Origin: Levilactobacillus parabrevis ATCC 53295
GTDB taxonomy: Bacteria; Bacillota; Bacilli; Lactobacillales; Lactobacillaceae
Direction of reading: 5' to 3'
Assembly (NCBI RefSeq): GCF_001434055.1
Contig: NZ_AZCZ01000018.1
Coordinates: 1 to 53,093 of the forward strand
Length of the DNA stretch: 53,093 nucleotides
Both the position numbers and the translations under genes were made by a program. Below the pieces are notes generated by a model. It was not told the DNA's origin and searched no databases. It worked only from the letters and a program-made list of their open reading frames with translations. Positions 14,673 to 42,722 of this stretch are shown piece after piece; the stretch's first letter is position 1; every line of letters begins with the position of its first letter.

Positions 14673-15070
14673 TGGTGTAAATCCTGAGTAATCGCGGTCG
14701 GCTTTTGTCGGCTGAGGAAAGTCCATGCTCGCACAGACTGAGATGTCTGTAGTGTTCGTGCTCGGTGAAAAAATAAGCCGGGGGACGTTAGCAATAACGT
14801 TACGGCGGGAAAACACGGCTACGGCTTCGGCTATGTCCTAGTATCCCTGAAAAGTGCCACAGTGACGATACGTCTAAGGAAACTTAGGCGGTGGAACGCG
14901 GTAAACCCCTCGAGCGGGCAACCCAAACTTTTGGTAGGGGCGCTTCACATATGGAAATGAACGAAATGTGGGGGGAGAGGAAACTCTCGAGATAGATGAT
15001 TACTGCCAGTCAGCCGTTTGCCTGAAACGGTTGGGTGGTACAAAACATGGCTTACAGGGATTTACACCAT
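14673..15070 (+). ncRNA. rnpB: RNase P RNA, Bacillus type (class B)
   Basis: Ribozyme subunit of RNase P, which trims tRNA 5' ends. The 5' end GGTGTAAATCC (14674-14684) pairs with GGATTTACACC near 15058-15068 to close P1. Hallmarks inside: GAGGAAAGTCCATGCTCGC (CR-I, about 14713-14731), the CCCTCGAGCGGGCAACCC-like segment near 14906, and the terminal AGATAGATGATTACTGCC segment (about 14990) of CR-V, followed by TACAAAACATGGCTTACAG. It lies between gpsB and rlmL as in Bacillus. Confidence 0.95.
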
Positions 15071-28761: not shown

Positions 28762-29532
28762 ATGAAAAAAGTGATTCAAATCATGACGATTATCGGTGTT
28801 GGCATTGGCCTTTCAAGTGTTGTCAGTATGACGGCTTCTGCAAGTAGCCAGTATTCGGCTTCGCGTGCCAGTTCGGTACGGTTAGTTTGGCGGAAGGCCA
28901 TGAAACGGCATGCTTACACGGCAACGACCGGTTCACGGTTCTCGAAACACCTCAGCATCCGTTATGGCAACAATAAGACGACGGCGAAGGTGACGTGGTA
29001 CACGGATGCCCATGAAATGTTGTATAAGAAGTACGCGGGACACAATGCCATTTACTATCACGTGAAGAGCGCAGATGGATCCTTGCAGGGGTGGATCTGG
29101 CGTGGTTACCTGAAGGCTAGAAATGGCAAAACGACGAAGACACAGGTCACAGATGATGTGACTGTCGATAGTAAAACTATGATTCGGACCATGTTTCCTA
29201 AGTCTACATACAATTCAAAATTGACGGATGCGGCAAACTCCTTTGAAACGATTGATGATTCCGCTGACGTTAACGAACTGCGTAGCCAAGAAGGCATGAG
29301 TCAGGTGATTTCCAGATACGTGTCATTCAAGAGGATGAAGTATATCGATTTTTACAGCAAAAATCCGGCTAGTATGAAGTCGATTGACCAAGCCCTGACT
29401 GCTCAGGGATACGATGCGGCAACCAGGAAGAACTTCAAAGGGTGGTCCGTTGGTGGTAGTGTCACGGGGCTAGATGATGCGCTGGAAGGCATTGACCCAG
29501 GAGAAGGTATTATTTATCTCATTCAACAATAG
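28762..29532 (+). CDS. Secreted protein of unknown function
   Basis: 256 residues. A classical signal peptide (MKK..., hydrophobic core to about 22, cleavage near ASA-SS) precedes a basic region and a segment, WYTDAHEMLYKKYAGHNAIYYH...GWIWRGYLK, that resembles the short SH3/GW-like wall-binding or surface-layer-associated repeats of lactobacilli. The C-terminal 120 residues are unassigned; no catalytic motif seen. Good GGGAGG ribosome site and its own terminator. Likely cell-wall associated. Confidence 0.75.
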   Translation: MKKVIQIMTIIGVGIGLSSVVSMTASASSQYSASRASSVRLVWRKAMKRHAYTATTGSRFSKHLSIRYGNNKTTAKVTWYTDAHEMLYKKYAGHNAIYYHVKSADGSLQGWIWRGYLKARNGKTTKTQVTDDVTVDSKTMIRTMFPKSTYNSKLTDAANSFETIDDSADVNELRSQEGMSQVISRYVSFKRMKYIDFYSKNPASMKSIDQALTAQGYDAATRKNFKGWSVGGSVTGLDDALEGIDPGEGIIYLIQQ

Positions 29533-29548
29533 TCAGTTTTTCCGAGAG

Positions 29549-29579
29549 GCGGTCATCAGTGGTGGTGACTGCTTTTTTT
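29549..29579 (+). terminator. Terminator after the secreted protein
   Basis: GCGGTCATCA (29549-29558) pairs with TGGTGACTGC (29563-29572) with wobbles, followed by seven T. Confidence 0.85.
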
Positions 29580-29629
29580 AGATCCGCTTTTAACTTGAAT
29601 CAGCTGAGCTGAATACTTAGAATTGTCTC

Positions 29630-29779
29630 TCAGTCGGCACTAACGTCATTCGGTGAACAGATTGTCGCCAATAAAAAGATGCCGTTTGAGCTGTCTCGGA
29701 TAAGCTCAGAGGAAAAACGCAGCCAAATAGTTAGAAGAACATGACACGATTAAGGCGATGAACAATCATCGCTTTTTTT
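29630..29779 (+). ncRNA. Candidate small RNA
   Basis: A promoter-like pair TTGAAT (29595-29600) and TAGAAT (29618-29623), spaced exactly 17 bp, is followed about 130 bp later by an intrinsic terminator: GCGATGA (29755-29761)/TCATCGC (29766-29772) plus seven T. Between them TGAGC/GCTCA forms a small stem near 29690. A 21-codon frame beginning near 29682 lacks a ribosome site. The promoter-terminator pair without a gene suggests a ~150-nt RNA. Confidence 0.45.
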
Positions 29780-30035
29780 ACACTCTCCATTTACTACTAA
29801 TGTAATTTTCACAATTTTAGTCTCATAATTTTTCAAAATAGCTGTAATATTTGTTTTAATTCGCAATTCATTGCGGAGATGATCGATCGGCAAAACTCCG
29901 GCTAAACGCCAAACTCGGCACGTGTTCACTCGTCATCACACCCCAACAAGAATTCTGTTGCCCCTGAATCCATAACCCCCATGAAATGGTTCTCCAATTT
30001 TTATTTTGCCCAAACCGTCAGAGCCCGGCTTTTTC
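29780..30035. other. AT-rich intergenic stretch before lspA
   Basis: About 255 bases with no open frame carrying a ribosome site. The first 80 bases are AT-rich. No perfect repeats longer than about 8 bp were found by eye. Confidence 0.4.
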
Positions 30036-30044
30036 TGGTATAAT
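30036..30044 (+). promoter_or_regulatory. Extended -10 promoter of lspA
   Basis: TGGTATAAT is a consensus extended -10 (TG-N-TATAAT), 38 bp before the lspA start. A -35 element is weak, as expected for extended -10 promoters. Confidence 0.65.
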
Positions 30045-30082
30045 TTTCAACAACGACTTATAGGAAAGGTGCTCCAGAAGTT

Positions 30083-30547
30083 ATGCTGATTGCTGATACC
30101 ATCTTAATTATTCTGCTGGTTGGGCTCGACCAGTGGATCAAATACGCCGTGGTGGCCAACATCCCCCTCGGTGGCGAACAGAGCTTCATCCCCGGGCTGG
30201 TATCGTTGACCCACTTGCGCAACGATGGGGCCGCCTGGAGTATCTTACAGGGCCAAATGTGGTTCTTTGCCGTCATCGCCATCGTGGCGTTGGGCGTCAT
30301 GGGCTACTTCTTCTGGCAGTACCGCAATCGTGGTGAACACTGGCCGGAAGAATTGGGGCTCGCCCTAATGATGGCCGGAACCATTGGGAACTTCATCGAC
30401 CGGCTCACACAGGGTTACGTCGTCGACATGTTCCAACTCGACTTTATTAATTTTCCAATCTTTAACTTTGCCGACAGTTGTTTAACGGTCGGTGTGATAT
30501 TTATTGCGATCGGGGTCTTTCTCGCCGATCGTCGGGAGGCACATTAA
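30083..30547 (+). CDS. lspA: Lipoprotein signal peptidase (signal peptidase II)
   Basis: 154-residue four-helix membrane aspartyl protease that removes signal peptides from prolipoproteins. Catalytic aspartates are D106 in GNFIDRL and D131 in NFADS; the conserved N-terminal DQWIK (16-20) and RNDGAAWS (46-53) are present. GGAAAGGTGC serves as ribosome site. The TAA overlaps the ATG of rluD by one base. Confidence 0.96.
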   Translation: MLIADTILIILLVGLDQWIKYAVVANIPLGGEQSFIPGLVSLTHLRNDGAAWSILQGQMWFFAVIAIVALGVMGYFFWQYRNRGEHWPEELGLALMMAGTIGNFIDRLTQGYVVDMFQLDFINFPIFNFADSCLTVGVIFIAIGVFLADRREAH

Positions 30548-31470
30548 TGCAAACACATGAATTTACGGTAACGGAGACGGCGCGGCTGGATAAGCTCGTT
30601 GCCGAAACGGTAACCACAATTTCTCGCTCACAGGCCAAAGGCGCCATTGAAGCGGGACAGATCACGGTAGACGGCCAACCGGCCAAGCCAAAGGATAAAC
30701 CGGCCGTGGGGGCTACAATTCACATTGAATTGCCCGCCCCACAGCCACTCGATGTCACTCCGGAAAACATTCCGCTGGATATCGTTTACGAAGACGATGA
30801 TGTCATCGTCGTGAACAAGCCGCAGGGGATGGTCGTTCATCCCGCACCGGGGCATCCTAATCACACGTTGGTCAACGCACTCCTGTATCATAGCCCCTTG
30901 TCTAGCATCAATGGGACGTTGCGGCCGGGGATTGTGCATCGCATTGATAAGGATACATCGGGCTTACTGATGGTGGCCAAGAACGACCACGCCCATCAGA
31001 GCCTCTCTGCGCAACTGCAGGCCAAGACCAACCTCCGAGAGTACGTGGCAATCGTGCACGGTAACTTCAAGGAAGAAGAGGGCGTAATTCGCGCGCCACT
31101 TGGTCGGGCGCCTAAGGACCGTAAGAAGCAGGCCGTCGTGGCCGATGGTCGCCCTGCCGTGACTCATTTCCGCGTATTGGAACGCTACGGCAACTACACG
31201 CTGGTTTCCTGTCGCTTGGAGACCGGTCGGACCCATCAGATCCGCGTGCACATGGCGTACATTAACCATCCGGTTGCGGGTGATCCGTTGTATGGCCCTA
31301 AGAAGACGCTAAAGGGTGAAGGTCAGTTCCTGCACGCTCGCGAATTAGGGTTCGTCCACCCGACAACGGGTGAGCAGTTAGACTTCACTGCGCCCGTTCC
31401 GCCGCACTTTATGGCGGTCGTCAATAAGCTACGGCACGAGGCCGGTTTACCGGTTGACAAAGTAATCTAA
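30547..31470 (+). CDS. rluD: RluD-family pseudouridine synthase
   Basis: 307 residues: an S4 RNA-binding domain (about 12-60) and the RluA/RluD catalytic domain with HRIDKDTSGLL (131-141, catalytic D134) and GRTHQIRVHMAYINHPVAGDP. Modifies rRNA (large-subunit uridines by family inference). ATG 30547 has GGGAGG upstream inside lspA, and a longer upstream frame belongs to lspA DNA. Conserved lspA-rluD operon, normally followed by pyrR as here. Confidence 0.94.
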   Translation: MQTHEFTVTETARLDKLVAETVTTISRSQAKGAIEAGQITVDGQPAKPKDKPAVGATIHIELPAPQPLDVTPENIPLDIVYEDDDVIVVNKPQGMVVHPAPGHPNHTLVNALLYHSPLSSINGTLRPGIVHRIDKDTSGLLMVAKNDHAHQSLSAQLQAKTNLREYVAIVHGNFKEEEGVIRAPLGRAPKDRKKQAVVADGRPAVTHFRVLERYGNYTLVSCRLETGRTHQIRVHMAYINHPVAGDPLYGPKKTLKGEGQFLHARELGFVHPTTGEQLDFTAPVPPHFMAVVNKLRHEAGLPVDKVI

Positions 31471-31518
31471 GCTTTTTAAACTAAATGTACGAGATAAGCG
31501 GGTTTGCCGGTAGCTAGG

Positions 31519-31559
31519 CGGGCGGGTTTCTTCACCATTTTGCCGAAGAGATCTGCCCG
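31519..31559 (+). promoter_or_regulatory. Long leader hairpin before pyrR
   Basis: Arms 31519-31533 and 31545-31559 form an unbroken 15-bp helix (three G-U wobbles) with an 11-nt loop ACCATTTTGCC. Only a weak T-rich tail follows. It sits in the 132-base space between rluD and pyrR where PyrR-controlled attenuators are usually found, but I do not see the conserved PyrR-binding loop (a CC-N-GNGAGG-like sequence). Could be a terminator or a changed attenuator. Confidence 0.55.
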
Positions 31560-31581
31560 TTTCCTGCACATGAACGCGTGA

Positions 31582-32136
<555 letters not shown>

Positions 32137-32160
32137 ACTTGACGAAGGGGCCGATTTAGC

Positions 32161-33240
32161 ATGGAAAAACGCTATTTGATTTTAGAAGACGGCTCGGCCT
32201 ACGCCGGTGAAGGATTTGGTGCCGGCGCGACAACGAGTGGCGAAGTCATTTCCAACTTGAATCTCTTAGGCTATCAGGAAACAATCACCGATCAGATTTA
32301 TCACAACCAAATCATCATTTTTGCGCAGCCAGCCATTGGTAACGTGGGGATCAACCACGATAGTTACGAGTCGATTCTGCCCACGGCTAAGGGGATGGTG
32401 GTCCGCGATGTCACGAACATCTCGACCAACCGCCTGTCCCGGCTGTCGCTTGATGAATTTTTACAACAACACAACATTCCGGGGATCAGTGGCATCGATA
32501 CCCGCCACCTGATTCGTAAGCTCCGCAAAATGGATGGGCCGGTCAAGGGGAGTATCGTGGACGTTGCGGACGCCCACGCCTTTGATCAGCTCAACGCCAC
32601 GGTGCTGACGAATCGCCAGGTCGATCAGGTCGCCACGCCCAAACCGTATCCCAACCCGGATACCGGTAAGAACGTGGTCGTGATCGACTTTGGGCTGAAA
32701 CACGGGATTTTACGGCAGTTGTCCGAGCGCCGGTGCAACGTCACGGTTCTACCATGGACAGCGAGTGCTCAAGACGTGCTGAACTTGGATCCGGATGGGG
32801 TGCTCCTGTCGACGGGGCCTGGTTCACCCTTAGACCTCGGTGAAGGGGTCTTAGAGATGATTAGAGCCGTTCAAGCGGAGATTCCGTTATTCGCTATTGG
32901 CTTGGGCCACGAGCTCTTTGCGCTGGCTAATGGGGCGAAATTAGAGGCACTGCCCGTGGAGTATCACGGCAGTAGCCATCCCATTCGCCGGATCATTACG
33001 AACGATATTATTTATGCCACGCAGGGTCAGGGATACGCCGTCACCGCCAAGACGATTGACCGTGACCGGCTGATCACCACCTACGTGGACCTGATCAACG
33101 GCACCGTTCAGGGACTGCGACACCGTGACTACCCAGCATTCTCCGTGCAGTTCTTCGCGGATGGTGCACCGGGACCTCATGAGAGTCGGGACCTGTTTGA
33201 TGAATTCATGGAAGCCATGACAGCACGGCGGGAGGGATAA
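32161..33240 (+). CDS. Carbamoyl-phosphate synthase small-subunit homologue lacking the glutaminase triad
   Basis: 359 residues, co-linear with CarA. The N-terminal CarA domain is well kept (GYQETITDQIYHNQII, IGNVGINHDS, IPGISGIDTRHLIRKLR). In the class I glutamine amidotransferase domain the nucleophile Cys is Gly247 (AIGLGHE instead of xICLGHQ; codon GGC at 32899-32901), the catalytic His is Phe332 and the Glu is Asp334 (FFADGAPGP for YHPEASPGP). GPGDP reads GPGSP and SQNHG reads TQGQG. It should be unable to hydrolyse glutamine. The frame is intact, with GC and codon use like its neighbours, so it is not a fresh pseudogene. Co-transcribed with pyrR and the carB-like gene. A new non-catalytic or ammonia-independent role is inferred. 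Confidence 0.9.
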   Translation: MEKRYLILEDGSAYAGEGFGAGATTSGEVISNLNLLGYQETITDQIYHNQIIIFAQPAIGNVGINHDSYESILPTAKGMVVRDVTNISTNRLSRLSLDEFLQQHNIPGISGIDTRHLIRKLRKMDGPVKGSIVDVADAHAFDQLNATVLTNRQVDQVATPKPYPNPDTGKNVVVIDFGLKHGILRQLSERRCNVTVLPWTASAQDVLNLDPDGVLLSTGPGSPLDLGEGVLEMIRAVQAEIPLFAIGLGHELFALANGAKLEALPVEYHGSSHPIRRIITNDIIYATQGQGYAVTAKTIDRDRLITTYVDLINGTVQGLRHRDYPAFSVQFFADGAPGPHESRDLFDEFMEAMTARREG

Positions 33241-33242
33241 GT

Positions 33243-35816
33243 TTGCAGAACTTGGATGACTTACAAAAAGTTTTGATCATTGGGAGTGGTCCGACGGAAA
33301 TTGGTCATGAGACCGAGCTCGACAGTGCCACCGTCCAGATCATTACGGGCTTCAAGAAACACGGCGTCCGGACGCTGGTGATCGATAACAATCCATTCTC
33401 CGTGGCGCTGGAAGAAATTCAGCCAACCAACATGTACGTCCAGGCGGTGACGACCGCTAACGTGCGACACATCATTGAACGTGACCAGCCGGATGCCATC
33501 TTACCGACGCTGGGTGGCCTGCTGGGTATTCGAATCACTCAGGAGCTCATTGAAAATGGTGATATTGGTCGTTTTGGCGTCACTATTTTAGGGATGCCCG
33601 CTGCGACTCTACGGCAGATTAACAATCCAGCCGCCTTAAACGCCACGCTCAAGGAGATTCACGAGCCAGTCATCGAGGCACAGGTCGTGTCTACAGAAGA
33701 CGAGGCTCTGGGGTTGGTTGAGTCGATTGGTTTTCCACTGATTGTAAAGCCGGTGGCACCACGCTTGGATACCAACCGCACAATCTGTGAAAATGTCGAT
33801 GACATGCTGGACGCCCTGAATCAGGGGTTCGCTCAGTCACGATTTGACCAATGTACGCTGGAACGCAGTGTCGTTGGTTACAAGGAAATTGAAATGGTTG
33901 CGGTTCGCGATGTGGCCGATACCAAGATCCTGATCGCAGGGTTGGAAAATATCGACACCGTTGGGATTCACTCGGGAGACTCGATTGTGGTGACGCCACC
34001 ACAAACGTTGAATGACCGGGAGTACCAAGACCTGCGGGACGCCACCTTTCGGATTGCAACCGAACTGGGAATTGTGGGAGTCATCCACATTCACTTTGCG
34101 TTGAATCCAAATAATCAGCATTTCTACGTGACTAAGATTGCCCCGTACTTTACGCGAGGGGTGGCCTTGGCCGCGCGGACGACCGGTTATCCACTGGCGC
34201 TGGTCACCGGCGCTCTGCTGATCGGTCAACGACTCGTCGACATCAAATTGCCGAGCCGCTTTGTTAAGCAGACCGCTATCATGGAGCCGACCATCGACCA
34301 TGTCAGCGTGCGCATCCCAATCTGGCCCTTCCAGGAGGTACCCGATGCCGATCAACACTTGGATACCGTCATGAAGGCGGTTGGGTCCACGGTTGGTGTG
34401 GGCCGGTCTGTCGAAGAGGCTATGTTAAAGTCCGTGCGGAGTTCGCAGTTCTCGCCTCGAGATGTGCTACCCAGCGTCAGCAACCTAACCGACGGGGAAA
34501 TGATCAGTCAATTGATTCATCCGTTGGCTAACCGGATTCTGGTGCTGATTGAAGCACTTCGGCGCGGGTACACCCCCGATGAACTGAGTGAACTGACCAA
34601 GATCGATGTCTTCTACTTCGTTAAGCTCCAACATTTATTGAAAATCGAGAAACAAATCAAGGAAAATCCCCTGGACGTGGACACACTCAAGGATGCCCGC
34701 TACTACGGGTTTGGGGATGGGATGATTGCCCGCATCTGGCAGACGGATACGGCAACCATTCGGCGATTGTCTGCCGAGGCGGATATCAAGCCGACCTACA
34801 AGATGATTGAGCCTACCGCTGGGGAGTTTGACGAGCATGCTAGTGGCTACTACAGTACCTTTGAGTATGAGAACGAAAGCAAACCATTAGGCGACCGGAC
34901 GGCATTGGTACTGGGACGTGGTGGTAATCAGCTCGGTCCCAACTCCGCAGCGGAGTATTTCACAACTGAAATGCTCAAGCAGCTGAAGCGAGCGGGGTAT
35001 CACACGATCCTGATGAATACCAATCCAAATGCCATCGGGATTGCCCCTGAATTCACGGATAAGCAGTACGTCGATCCCATTCAACTGGGTGACGTGCTCA
35101 ACGTGATCAAGGTCGAGCACCCCGACATCGTCATTGTTCCAGGAAATCGGCATTACCTGACACGTGAGCTGGGTAAGCTGAACTTGAATCTGCATGTGCT
35201 GCCCCCAGATCAGGAGAGTAGTAAGTCACAACCGAAGACAGCGACCATCAGTGTGAGTCTGTTCGTCCACAAGCAACACAAGATTGCGGTGGGGGTCATG
35301 GACATGATTGCCCCGGGGATGAATCAGGATATCGCCCAAGTCACCGCCTTTCGGATGCCCGCTGAACGGGCCAAAGCTGATCGACTGAAGTTGGTCGAAC
35401 AAGCTAAGGAAGCCGTTAGCGAGCATCAGCTGACGGGGATGGTGCAAGTGTTATTTGCACCGAAGAGCAAGGACAGTCAACAACTGACGGTCGTTGGCAT
35501 CCGACCGACGCGTTTGACGGAGATGGCCTTTCTGAGTAAAGTCACCGGCGTCAACTGGGTACGAATGCTCACCCGACAACACATCGGAACGCTGGACGAG
35601 AAGGAACTGGCCGCCATTAAGATTGACCTGAATAGTAAGCGTGTCGCCTTAATGAACGCCGTCTTCCCATTCCAGCAGCTCCACGTCTTGAACCGGCCGG
35701 GAACGACCGATCAGGAAATGGGGGCCACAATTGCCTTTGGGTCGAGTGAGGCCTTAACTCTGAGTAATTTGAGCGATACCGAACAGCTCGATAAGATTAT
35801 TAACCGGACGATTTAA
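33243..35816 (+). CDS. Carbamoyl-phosphate synthase large-subunit homologue, truncated and lacking ATP-grasp residues
   Basis: 857 residues against about 1060 in CarB. First half: ATP-loop RP-x4-GGTGGG is KPVAPRLDTNRT (169-180), the position of Arg129 is Pro, and the metal-binding E-x-N-P is KIAP (298-301); Glu215 (GYKEIE) and ENID-x-VGIH-x-GDSIVV are kept. The middle oligomerisation domain (RRGYTPDELSELTKID, ~450-470) is good. In the second half the opening GSGPIRIGQ-x-EFDY reads GRGGNQLGPNSAAEYF, the ATP-grasp core is shortened, and the C-terminal MGS-like allosteric domain (~140 residues) is missing. TTG start with GGGAGGG, 2 bp after the carA-like stop. Likely a pseudoenzyme partner of the preceding gene. 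Confidence 0.9.
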   Translation: MQNLDDLQKVLIIGSGPTEIGHETELDSATVQIITGFKKHGVRTLVIDNNPFSVALEEIQPTNMYVQAVTTANVRHIIERDQPDAILPTLGGLLGIRITQELIENGDIGRFGVTILGMPAATLRQINNPAALNATLKEIHEPVIEAQVVSTEDEALGLVESIGFPLIVKPVAPRLDTNRTICENVDDMLDALNQGFAQSRFDQCTLERSVVGYKEIEMVAVRDVADTKILIAGLENIDTVGIHSGDSIVVTPPQTLNDREYQDLRDATFRIATELGIVGVIHIHFALNPNNQHFYVTKIAPYFTRGVALAARTTGYPLALVTGALLIGQRLVDIKLPSRFVKQTAIMEPTIDHVSVRIPIWPFQEVPDADQHLDTVMKAVGSTVGVGRSVEEAMLKSVRSSQFSPRDVLPSVSNLTDGEMISQLIHPLANRILVLIEALRRGYTPDELSELTKIDVFYFVKLQHLLKIEKQIKENPLDVDTLKDARYYGFGDGMIARIWQTDTATIRRLSAEADIKPTYKMIEPTAGEFDEHASGYYSTFEYENESKPLGDRTALVLGRGGNQLGPNSAAEYFTTEMLKQLKRAGYHTILMNTNPNAIGIAPEFTDKQYVDPIQLGDVLNVIKVEHPDIVIVPGNRHYLTRELGKLNLNLHVLPPDQESSKSQPKTATISVSLFVHKQHKIAVGVMDMIAPGMNQDIAQVTAFRMPAERAKADRLKLVEQAKEAVSEHQLTGMVQVLFAPKSKDSQQLTVVGIRPTRLTEMAFLSKVTGVNWVRMLTRQHIGTLDEKELAAIKIDLNSKRVALMNAVFPFQQLHVLNRPGTTDQEMGATIAFGSSEALTLSNLSDTEQLDKIINRTI

Positions 35817-35858
35817 CAGCCGGTATTCTTCGGGAATAAAAAAGAAATTGTAACTAGC

Positions 35859-35898
35859 AAAAAGTACGCCATCAACGTTAATTGATGGCGTACTTTTT
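35859..35898. terminator. Bidirectional terminator between the carB-like gene and rqcH
   Basis: A perfect stem of about 16 bp (AAAAAGTACGCCATCA with its complement ending TACTTTTT) with A and T runs outside; serves both convergent genes. Confidence 0.93.
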
Positions 35899-35929
35899 AT
35901 TTGGAAATTATTTGTATCGTACAATTAAG

Positions 35930-37639
35930 CTAATTATCTGCTAGCTTTTCGACTAAGTCACTTTCAGGCGTGACGTAAACGGTCCGTTGGCCGGTAAAGA
36001 TCACGTAACCGGGTTTGGCACCGTTAGGCTTATGCAGACGCTTGACTGGCAGGTAGTCCACGGGAACGTTGCTGGAGGCCCGCCCCTTGGAGAAGTAAGC
36101 AGCTAGATTAGCGGCTTCCATGATGGTTGCCTCACTAGGGTCATCGTCGTGAATGATGACGTGAGACCCCGGCATATCCTTTACGTGCAACCAGATGTCG
36201 GTTCGCTTAGCCGTGTGCAGGCTGAGTTGATCATTTTGCAGGTTGTTCTTCCCAACAGAGATCTTGGTGCCATCGCTGGCAGTGAACCGATCTGGCTTGC
36301 TGACCTTTTGCCGTTTTTGCTTCTTGTTCTTCTTTTGGTGATCGTGGTCGCGGAGGTAGCCACCTTGTTGGAGCTCCAAGCGAATGTCGACGAGGTCCTT
36401 AGGTGCGGCCAGTTCGATCTGGGCCATGATGTTAGAGAAGTAGTCCACATCGGCCTGGGTAATTTTAAGCTGTTCGTTAACGTAGATCACCGCATTTTTA
36501 GCCTTTTGATACCGTTTGAAGTACTTTTGCGCATTTTGGTTTGGAGAGAGTTGATTGCTGAGCTTGATCTTCAGTGGATTATTCTCATCGTAAAAGTTGG
36601 GTAGGGAAACTTCGGTTTGACCACGGTCAACTTGGTTGAGATAAGTCGTGAGGATTTCACCCTTGATGCGGTAGTCATCGGCGTTCTCTGTCTCGGCTAG
36701 CGTTCGCTGTAATTTTTTGAGCTTGTTGCGGTTCTTCTTAAGTTCATTACGAACGACCCGAATCAAGACGCTCCCTTGTTGCTGAACACGGTCCCGTTCG
36801 GCCTTGTCCTGATAATAGGCATCCAGTAGCGCGGACAGGCTTTCAGAGGTGTGTTGCGTGCCAGCCGTCGGATAAGGAAAGGCGGTAAAGCTGGTCTTGC
36901 CCTTTGGCGAAATGGTCAGCGTGGGTTGTGGCGCGTCGAAACGAGCGAAGAAGTCACGGAAATGTTGGTCAGCGTCGCCGGGTTCGTGTAGAACCGTTGA
37001 CAGTGCGGCGACCGTATCCTTGCCCAGTCCCTGGTATTGATGTTGCAAGGTTTGAGCGAGAACCTCTTCGTTGGGGAAGTCGCGTAAGGTTTGGGCGAGA
37101 TCGGCCCGGGGACCATCGAAGGGGTTGTCGAGGTCCTGCTTCGGTGGGGTGATGTATTGTGCACCCGGGAGCAGTAACCGGTAACGGTTCTGATCGGAGC
37201 CGACGTGCTTGATAGCGTCTAGGATCTTACCACTGGCACTGTCGACGAGAATGACGTTACTGTGCCGGGCCATGATTTCGATGATCAGGAGCAGTTCCTG
37301 CTGATCCCCTAATTCGTTACGCGACGTAAAGTGGAGGTGAACGACCCGGTCGTTAGCGGCCTGGGTGATGCCTTTGACGATGGCTCCCTGCAGGTATTTC
37401 CGGAGAATCATCGTGAAGTTGGTGGGAATGGGTGGGTTGACGTAAGGAATCTGCGTCACTTGGATCCGCGCGTAGGTTGGATTAGCCGAAAGAAGGATCG
37501 GATAATTATGGCCGTTGGTGCGAATCGTCAGGACGACTTCGTTATCGTAAGGTTGGTTAATCTTACTAACGCGGCCGGTCGTCAGATTTTGGCTGAGTTC
37601 CTGAACCATTGCGTGGGTAAAGGATCCGTCAAATGACAT
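35930..37639 (-). CDS. rqcH: RqcH/NFACT-family ribosome quality control protein (formerly FbpA)
   Basis: 569 residues. NFACT-N begins at the N-terminus (MSFDGSFTHAMVQELSQ...), with HhH/coiled-coil parts in the middle (about 280-440, rich in Lys/Glu/Gln) and NFACT-R near 470-560 (DIWLHVKDMPGSHVIIHDD, DYLPVKRLHKPNGAKPGYV). In Bacillus RqcH adds C-terminal alanine tails to stalled nascent chains on 50S subunits. Older annotations call it fibronectin-binding protein. ATG after AAGGTGTTG. Convergent with the carB-like gene. Confidence 0.92.
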   Translation of the reverse strand: MSFDGSFTHAMVQELSQNLTTGRVSKINQPYDNEVVLTIRTNGHNYPILLSANPTYARIQVTQIPYVNPPIPTNFTMILRKYLQGAIVKGITQAANDRVVHLHFTSRNELGDQQELLLIIEIMARHSNVILVDSASGKILDAIKHVGSDQNRYRLLLPGAQYITPPKQDLDNPFDGPRADLAQTLRDFPNEEVLAQTLQHQYQGLGKDTVAALSTVLHEPGDADQHFRDFFARFDAPQPTLTISPKGKTSFTAFPYPTAGTQHTSESLSALLDAYYQDKAERDRVQQQGSVLIRVVRNELKKNRNKLKKLQRTLAETENADDYRIKGEILTTYLNQVDRGQTEVSLPNFYDENNPLKIKLSNQLSPNQNAQKYFKRYQKAKNAVIYVNEQLKITQADVDYFSNIMAQIELAAPKDLVDIRLELQQGGYLRDHDHQKKNKKQKRQKVSKPDRFTASDGTKISVGKNNLQNDQLSLHTAKRTDIWLHVKDMPGSHVIIHDDDPSEATIMEAANLAAYFSKGRASSNVPVDYLPVKRLHKPNGAKPGYVIFTGQRTVYVTPESDLVEKLADN

Positions 37640-42007: not shown

Positions 42008-42060
42008 AGCGTGCATCTTCTATGCGGTTATGGTAAGCTATTCGCTGTAATTAAATTTAC

Positions 42061-42179
42061 GGAGTAGGAAATAAAGCGTCAAGTGCTGGTGGAACGCAAT
42101 GTGAACACCGGACGAAGGGCAATTGGCCCGCGATTTTATTTCCGCATTGGCCGCAGCGATGTGGCAACTCCCTTAGGAG
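42061..42179 (+). promoter_or_regulatory. Tetrahydrofolate (THF) riboswitch
   Basis: GGAGT (42061-42065) closes P1 with ACTCC (42167-42171). Inside lie the conserved AGCGTCAAGTG segment (42075-42085), a GGTG/CACC hairpin, the GACGAAGGGC...GCCC hairpin, and AAATAAA (42070-42076) against TTTATTT (42136-42142). The order and sequence match the THF aptamer consensus seen before folT genes. Directly after P1 comes AGGAG (42175-42179), which can pair alternatively with CTCC of P1 (C42168-C42171). Confidence 0.9.
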
Positions 42180-42188
42180 ATGTCTGAA

Positions 42189-42722
42189 TTGAAGATGACT
42201 GTAGAGACTCGGCTACCTAAGCTGAGCACGTTGAGTTTGGTCACGATGGGCCTATTGATGGCGTTACAATTGGTGATCAAGAGTTTTTCGGTGGGACCAG
42301 CATTCTTGAAGTTTAGCTTCACGTTTCTGGTCGCGGCACTGGTCGCCCGGTTATTTGGCCCCTGGTGGGGGATGATGACGGCGGCAGTGGTCGATGTGAT
42401 TGGTACGTTGATGTCGGGTGGCCCGTTCTTTATCGGGTTTACGATCTCGGCGGTATTGGGTTCACTGATTTATGCGCTGTTCCTGTATGGAAAGCCGGTG
42501 AGCTGGCCGCGGTTGATCATCGCACAGGTTATCATCTCAGTGGTGGTTAACGCGCTGCTGAACACGTTGTGGGTGGCTATCATGTATAAGACCCCATTCT
42601 GGGGACTATTCCCCGTGCGGCTCTTAAAACAGGTGATTATGACCCCGATTCAAGTCGTGTTGCTCTATGCGCTATTCAAGAGTCATATCGTTAACTTAAT
42701 TCAAAAACGTTTAAACCTTTAG
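42189..42722 (+). CDS. folT: Folate ECF transporter substrate-binding subunit FolT
   Basis: 177 residues, six helices, FolT-like pattern LVTMGLLMALQLVIKSFSVGP, FLKFSFTF and VDVIGTLMSGGPFFIGFT. As an S component it needs the shared EcfA/EcfA'/EcfT module, which is elsewhere. The THF riboswitch upstream confirms folate as substrate. I prefer TTG 42189 as start: an ATG at 42180 is in frame but touches the AGGAG ribosome site, leaving no spacer, whereas TTG has 9 bases. Confidence 0.93.
   Translation: MKMTVETRLPKLSTLSLVTMGLLMALQLVIKSFSVGPAFLKFSFTFLVAALVARLFGPWWGMMTAAVVDVIGTLMSGGPFFIGFTISAVLGSLIYALFLYGKPVSWPRLIIAQVIISVVVNALLNTLWVAIMYKTPFWGLFPVRLLKQVIMTPIQVVLLYALFKSHIVNLIQKRLNL

Follow-up and report, generated by a model that had tools for sequence, protein, structure and literature searches.

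The window, meaning the whole stretch of 53,093 nucleotides analysed from Levilactobacillus parabrevis ATCC 53295, contains an operon in which pyrR is followed by carA' and carB', encoding homologues of the small and large subunits of carbamoyl phosphate synthetase (CPS). The features of the locus are listed in Table 1. The gap between carA' and carB' is 2 nt. Elsewhere, the window holds an RNase P RNA of class B at 14680-15059 (RF00011, 334 bits) and a tetrahydrofolate riboswitch at 42058-42155, directly 5' of the gene for an ECF transporter substrate component (42180-42722), which is probably a folate transporter.

Table 1. Features of the pyrR-carA'-carB' locus, with positions in the window.
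Feature	Position	Strand	Description
lspA and rluD, upstream flank	30083..31470	+	Mark the ancestral pyr-operon site
Promoter-like TTGACA-17-TAAACT before pyrR	31454..31482	+	10/12 consensus positions; a consensus match only, with 10 such sites against 5.2 expected in the region
pyrR, first gene of the operon	31603..32136	+	177 aa; NF003548 268 bits against a cut-off of 218 bits
carA', dead small subunit	32161..33240	+	359 aa; profile and residue comparison
Codon 247 of carA'	32899..32901	+	Gly at the catalytic Cys269 (E. coli); Gly in 69/69 loci and in 16/16 further dead CarA
carB', dead truncated large subunit	33243..35816	+	857 aa, TTG start; domain and residue comparison
Codon 179 of carB'	33777..33779	+	Arg at E. 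coli G179, in the old ATP glycine loop; Arg in 68/69 loci
Codon 282 of carB'	34086..34088	+	His at E. coli N283; His in 64/69 loci
Codon 298 of carB'	34134..34136	+	Lys replaces the metal-binding Glu299; Lys/Arg in 69/69 loci
Inverted repeat flanked by A and T runs	35860..35899	+	Probable terminator common to rqcH; found by eye, absent from the scan list
rqcH (NFACT), downstream flank	35930..37639	-	Convergent; same ancestral site

The frame at 33243-35816 on the plus strand is open throughout, in agreement with the initial annotation of an 857-residue CarB homologue without internal stop. Pfam matches in CarB' comprise the CPSase preATP-grasp domain, the first ATP-binding domain (residues 133-331) and the oligomerisation domain, the last at residues 423-499 and retained as the initial annotation had claimed. 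No MGS match was given by Pfam, confirming that the C-terminal MGS domain is absent. Against the equivalog model TIGR01369, CarB' scores 560 bits, below the cut-off of 1027 bits. The main match stretch stops at residue 632, and the TIGR01369 profile matches of the own genome end at profile position 901 of 1052. Comparison with E. coli CarB revealed that both ATP-grasp halves are degraded, as the same annotation had proposed. In the first, the glycine loop MGGSGGG reads RLDTNRT and E299-x-N301-P reads K-I-A-P, with R303 replaced by Tyr and Q285 by His. In the second, E841 is Gly, N843 is Arg and the region of D753/E761 is gone, in a part where the alignment is uncertain. The residues E215, G241, H243 and R306 (E. 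coli numbering) are retained.

Degradation of the small subunit had been claimed as well and is equally found. CarA' reads GLGHE in place of GICLGHQ (C269G, Q273E) and carries the substitutions H353F and S47I. It nevertheless passes the small-subunit cut-offs, with 399.8 against 221 for NF009475 and 327.6 against 307.35 for TIGR01368. In E. coli CarA, the glutamine contacts are S47, Q273 and N311.

To count these replacements, 69 loci (32 from Levilactobacillus including that of the window, and 37 from other genera) were aligned to E. coli CarA/CarB (L076); L001-L003, duplicates of the window's own locus, were left out, and the alignment to E. coli is uncertain in the second half of CarB'. In CarA', His353 and Ser47 are each lost in all 69 loci, Gln273 is Glu in 67 and N311 is replaced in 67, whereas G241 and G243 are Gly in all 69. 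In CarB', R303, E841 and N843 are each lost throughout (69/69) and N301 in 60 of the 69; the retained residues are Glu215 (67/69), His243 (64/69) and Arg306 (53/69). Positions 174-178 of the glycine loop are variable among the loci, and residues 641-840 form the least conserved stretch of CarB'. Between genera, the mean frequency of the top residue in 40-residue windows is 0.62-0.76 for CarA' versus 0.31-0.62 for residues 1-840 of CarB'.

Judged from these alignments, the first CarB' site is more than eroded, as a fixed Arg, a His and a Lys/Arg are predicted to add positive charge at the old place of the ATP phosphates and metal. Carbamoyl phosphate synthesis by the known route would not be expected for CarA'-CarB'. 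AlphaFold2 models of the single chains gave a pLDDT of 37 for CarB' (31 of the 32 Levilactobacillus rows as alignment, L028 out) and 36 for CarA' (28 of the 32 rows, with L014, L017, L028 and L035 out), probably due to the poor diversity of the alignments. Models at pLDDT 36-37 are unusable, so the pocket is read from the E. coli alignment alone.

CarB' was counted with profile A4 of its C-terminus, which distinguishes CarB' from canonical CarB as long as A4 contains the genus in question. A full-length CarB' profile was discarded for counting, as canonical CarB scored nearly as high. When one genus at a time was left out, some genera (g37, g5, g23 and g27) dropped to the level of canonical CarB, so that A4 may miss genera outside it; it did miss dead CarB forms of 800 aa and of full length. 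By this profile, 148 of the 251 Lactobacillaceae genomes and 21 of 38 genera carry CarB' of the 857-type. It is present in every sampled genome of the 21 positive genera (148/148), and the 103 A4-negative genomes coincide with the complete sample of the other 17 genera, indicating no loss in the sampled genomes of positive genera. A search of the order (295 genomes; E <= 1e-100) showed the short form in Lactobacillaceae alone among the matches listed.

Canonical CarB above the TIGR01369 cut-off occurs in 202 of the 251 genomes. In 117 of the 148 CarB'-bearing genomes, TIGR01369 matches at E = 0, which we read as canonical CarB, whereas 31 (12 genera) have no match better than 1e-170, which is about the score of CarB' itself; in these genomes the dead pair is therefore kept without a live CPS. 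The genome of the window is of the latter kind. A normal carAB elsewhere had been suggested by the initial annotation as something to look for, and none was found in its 133 contigs (99.8% complete), where no TIGR01369 match is over the cut-off and no aspartate carbamoyltransferase is over its cut-off either. Canonical CarB is likewise absent from 11 of 12 sampled Levilactobacillus genomes, and aspartate carbamoyltransferase is over the cut-off in just 4 of 35 genomes of this genus, g1 (G251, G266, G106 and G273). The aspartate carbamoyltransferase gene of G106 lies inside a pyrR-pyrB-carA-carB operon (L084), which was perhaps regained, because its CarA clusters with the g37 CarA (SH-aLRT 92).

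Nineteen genomes picked for hints of a second or odd CarB were re-examined, and 16 of them contain another dead CarAB, in 8 genera beyond the 21. A dead pair is thus present in 29 of 38 sampled genera, the last eight being judged on 1-3 genomes each. The dead CarB has 789-800 aa in g4, g9 and g34 (9 loci) and is of full length, 1054-1067 aa, in g11, g15, g20, g26 and g36 (7 loci). Degradation of the CarB sites is uneven among the 16 pairs. Glu299 is kept in g4, g9 and g34 and the first ATP-grasp residues in g20, which makes the signature of Lys/Arg plus Arg specific to the 857-type (g15 also has Lys). Four loci with a dead full-length CarB (L159, L160, L164 and L165, from g15, g11 and g20) show the order pyrR-pyrP-carA*-carB*, an arrangement that resembles a transitional stage from the live pyr operon to the short operon pyrR-carA'-carB'. 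In G010 (g11; L139/L164, L104), a live CarAB occurs together with a dead full-length CarAB, the latter at the ancestral rluD-rqcH site. The remaining three genomes (G028, G065 and G207) have two copies with catalytic residues; in G028 (g28; L125/L108), a canonical carB is split in two frames (853 + 207 aa) and the second carB is intact.

Comparison of the gene neighbourhoods places the pairs at one site. Five genera (g12, g13, g24, g30 and g32) have a live operon of the order lspA-rluD-pyrR-...-pyrB-...-carA-carB, as do 4 of the 8 other-family loci (f2, f3, f9). Two other-family loci (f8, f9) show the live operon from rluD on, and two (f4, f5) are without rluD in view. Within the stretches fetched, rqcH follows the live operon in 4 of these 5 genera and also at a single f2 locus. 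Upstream of CarB', rluD is present in 36 of the 37 non-Levilactobacillus and 31 of the 32 Levilactobacillus loci, both exceptions lying at contig starts; in the stretches retrieved, rqcH is downstream in 22/37 and 30/32, respectively. Of the 16 further dead pairs, all have lspA-rluD upstream, 13 have pyrR upstream and 15 have rqcH downstream. The dead pairs thus stand at the ancestral pyr-operon site (lspA-rluD-pyrR-...-rqcH). The fetched live pyr operons of CarB' genera are located elsewhere, or a few kilobases upstream in 2 of 3 g6 loci. In the g6 loci L098 and L119, the live and the dead pair are close neighbours, with some 2-4 kb from the live carAB to the downstream lspA-rluD-carA'-carB'.

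Phylogenetic trees recovered CarA' as one clade with SH-aLRT 100 (42 rows, of which 3 from Levilactobacillus, with two identical pairs), and CarB' also as one clade with SH-aLRT 100 (40 rows). On a free quick tree of CarA, the dead and live states call for two changes. Holding all 55 dead CarA rows together gives a tree that is better by 16 log units, with a p-AU of 0.764, and therefore a single origin of the dead pairs is allowed and favoured. One origin for all dead pairs would thus be compatible with the tree, albeit not proven by it.

The product of pyrR is the sole PyrR found in its genome, the only other match being 31% identical over residues 61-154. The gene precedes carA' in 32/32 Levilactobacillus loci (in L021, close to the start of a contig, it is shortened) and adjoins it in 31 of the 37 other loci, the 6 without it belonging to g3 and g6. 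Among the 16 further dead pairs, those of g36 and g26 (3/16) are without an adjoining pyrR; in g11, g15 and g20, the gene of the uracil permease, pyrP, separates pyrR from carA*, and in g26 it precedes carA*. The operon of the window is not preceded by any PyrR element, as searched at the gathering score over the window and at E up to 5 over 29400-36000, and none was found at any of 9 CarB' loci searched. Of 9 further dead loci, two have such elements, before pyrR in L164 (g11) and before pyrP-carA*-carB* in L161 (g26). In the own genome, PyrR elements precede the genes of a nucleoside deoxyribosyltransferase (56 bits, over the cut-off) and of a uracil permease (44.7 bits, under it), and PyrR therefore probably governs salvage. 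Co-occurrence with PyrR was discarded as evidence of a partnership: PyrR is found in 26/26 genomes with CarB' and in 16/17 without the 857-type (two weak), and being near-universal its presence alongside CarB' is uninformative. Two g37 genomes carry pyrR-carA'-carB' plus a second pyrR at the canonical operon, the two PyrRs being 64% identical; we infer that g37 is Lactiplantibacillus.

Selection was estimated with the Nei-Gojobori method on the Levilactobacillus loci (n = 32), using only pairs with a dS of 0.05-1. The median dN/dS values of carB' and carA' are 0.017 (17 pairs) and 0.013 (37 pairs), respectively, and those of the neighbouring genes are 0.020 for pyrR (43 pairs), 0.017 for rluD (20), 0.023 for rqcH (19) and 0.065 for lspA (52). 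The C-terminal remnant of CarB' (residues 641-857) is constrained as well, with 0.023 (21 pairs). In Levilactobacillus, carA' and carB' are under constraint as strong as the housekeeping genes rluD and rqcH. The closest named genome is that of Levilactobacillus fuyuanensis, 98% over CarB'. No frameshift was seen in relatives of other species, the frame of carB' extending over 818-900 aa in all 69 loci, and in each of the 148 genomes the CarB' match sits in an open frame, with lengths of 820-906 aa. A stop falls within the aligned part in 11 of the 148 rows; the three loci examined (L043, L056 and L060) have frames of 828, 832 and 818 aa, and in these three the stop is therefore the end of the gene itself. 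A decaying pseudogene pair, intact by chance, might account for the loss of the catalytic residues and of the C-terminal domain, but the low dN/dS values of both genes and the frames open in every locus and genome argue against it, and we give it practically no weight. Because the dN/dS of carB' is 0.017, the changes in CarA' and CarB' are not decay, the word that the initial annotation had used for them. Frameshifts in sister strains had been named there as a refuting sign; checked on relatives of other species, the proposal was not refuted. The annotation's proposal of a paired pseudoenzyme with maintained frames is supported, since the catalytic residues are gone in 69/69 loci, each subunit forms one clade, and the constraint is at housekeeping level.

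Strict conservation of CarA' and CarB' without the catalytic residues makes a role other than the CPS reaction very probable. The pair very probably does something other than synthesize carbamoyl phosphate, and we are confident that CarA'-CarB' is a functional non-CPS pseudoenzyme. We propose that CarA' and CarB' together make up an ancient CPS complex that is non-catalytic. The two dead proteins would still pair, and carA'B' would be co-transcribed with pyrR. The old ATP/bicarbonate pocket, now carrying Arg, His and Lys/Arg, would be a metal-free binding site for an anionic metabolite, and its occupancy would tune pyrimidine uptake or synthesis, most simply via PyrR or its ligand supply. That the complex is retained to act in the PyrR pyrimidine system as a regulator that binds a metabolite is a tentative reading of the sequence data, which we put at somewhat less than an even chance. 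Bicarbonate or carbamoyl phosphate as the ligand is a long shot.

Other explanations can be weighed against the same data. The derived residues fixed at the old site (R179 in 68, H282 in 64 and K/R298 in 69 of the 69 loci), together with the retention of the pair in genomes without canonical CarB, might reflect a new enzyme whose rebuilt active site performs another reaction, such as phosphate or carbamoyl transfer, unrelated to regulation. However, the glycine loop at 174-178 is variable, the stretch 641-840 is the least conserved and the metal ligands are absent, and we consider a new enzyme unlikely. A similarly low probability applies to the possibility that CarA' is the working part, a dead amidotransferase binding glutamine or a relative, with CarB' as its docking scaffold. 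CarA' is indeed better conserved between genera than CarB', and Gly at G241 and G243 is invariant (69/69), but the glutamine contacts S47, Q273 and N311 are replaced in 69, 67 and 67 of the 69 loci, and the first half of CarB' also has fixed derived residues. The retained oligomerisation domain and the co-existence with canonical CarB in 117 of 148 CarB' genomes would suit a regulatory, inhibitory companion that joins canonical CarA-CarB in mixed complexes. Such a companion is made unlikely by the 31 genomes from 12 genera that have CarB' without canonical CarB, and by the housekeeping-level constraint in Levilactobacillus, where 11 of 12 sampled genomes are without it; we rate it clearly below the two preceding alternatives.

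The tentative regulator in the PyrR system can be related to Lactiplantibacillus plantarum, where the genes beside pyrR2 are reportedly named pyrAa2/pyrAb2 in the primary study of that locus. The L. plantarum locus (pyrR2, lp_1782) is similar in having a second PyrR distinct from the PyrR of the pyr operon, as in the two g37 genomes. The PyrR2 paralogue is reported to respond to inorganic carbon (PMC3582564). This response suggests that the pair may have a role as a sensor of bicarbonate or carbamoyl phosphate. A dead CPS, fixed early in Lactobacillaceae, might then be a dedicated inorganic-carbon/carbamoyl-phosphate sensor whose rebuilt pocket reports to PyrR, a speculative idea that is more probably wrong than right by a wide measure. 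If true, it would explain the inorganic-carbon control by L. plantarum PyrR2, and the sensor pair would be a new class of two-subunit pseudoenzyme sensor. As the pair mostly adjoins PyrR, inorganic-carbon sensing via PyrR2 in L. plantarum becomes directly testable.

A catalytically dead complex in 29 of 38 genera of the family, under housekeeping-level constraint in Levilactobacillus, points to an unrecognised role. There is also a practical consequence. Since CarA' passes the small-subunit cut-offs, metabolic models may wrongly credit CarB-less lactobacilli with carbamoyl phosphate synthesis, a risk that concerns 31 of the 148 genomes here. The literature search, for which subscription texts were mostly outside the scope, gave no publication on a dead CPS pair among the matches listed.

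Similar to CarA-CarB of E. coli (TIGR01368/TIGR01369), both subunits of the pair are homologous to those of CPS, with the same gene order, the N-terminal half, the oligomerisation domain and the ancestral operon site. In contrast to the E. coli enzyme, the pair is without Cys269, His353, E299, R303, E841 and N843 in 69/69 loci and has no MGS domain. Vertebrate CPS1 likewise has an amidotransferase domain without the catalytic Cys, and its two ATP-grasp sites are kept, and it makes carbamoyl phosphate from ammonia. Loss of the catalytic Cys is common to CPS1 and CarA'-CarB', whereas both ATP-grasp sites are gone only in CarA'-CarB'.
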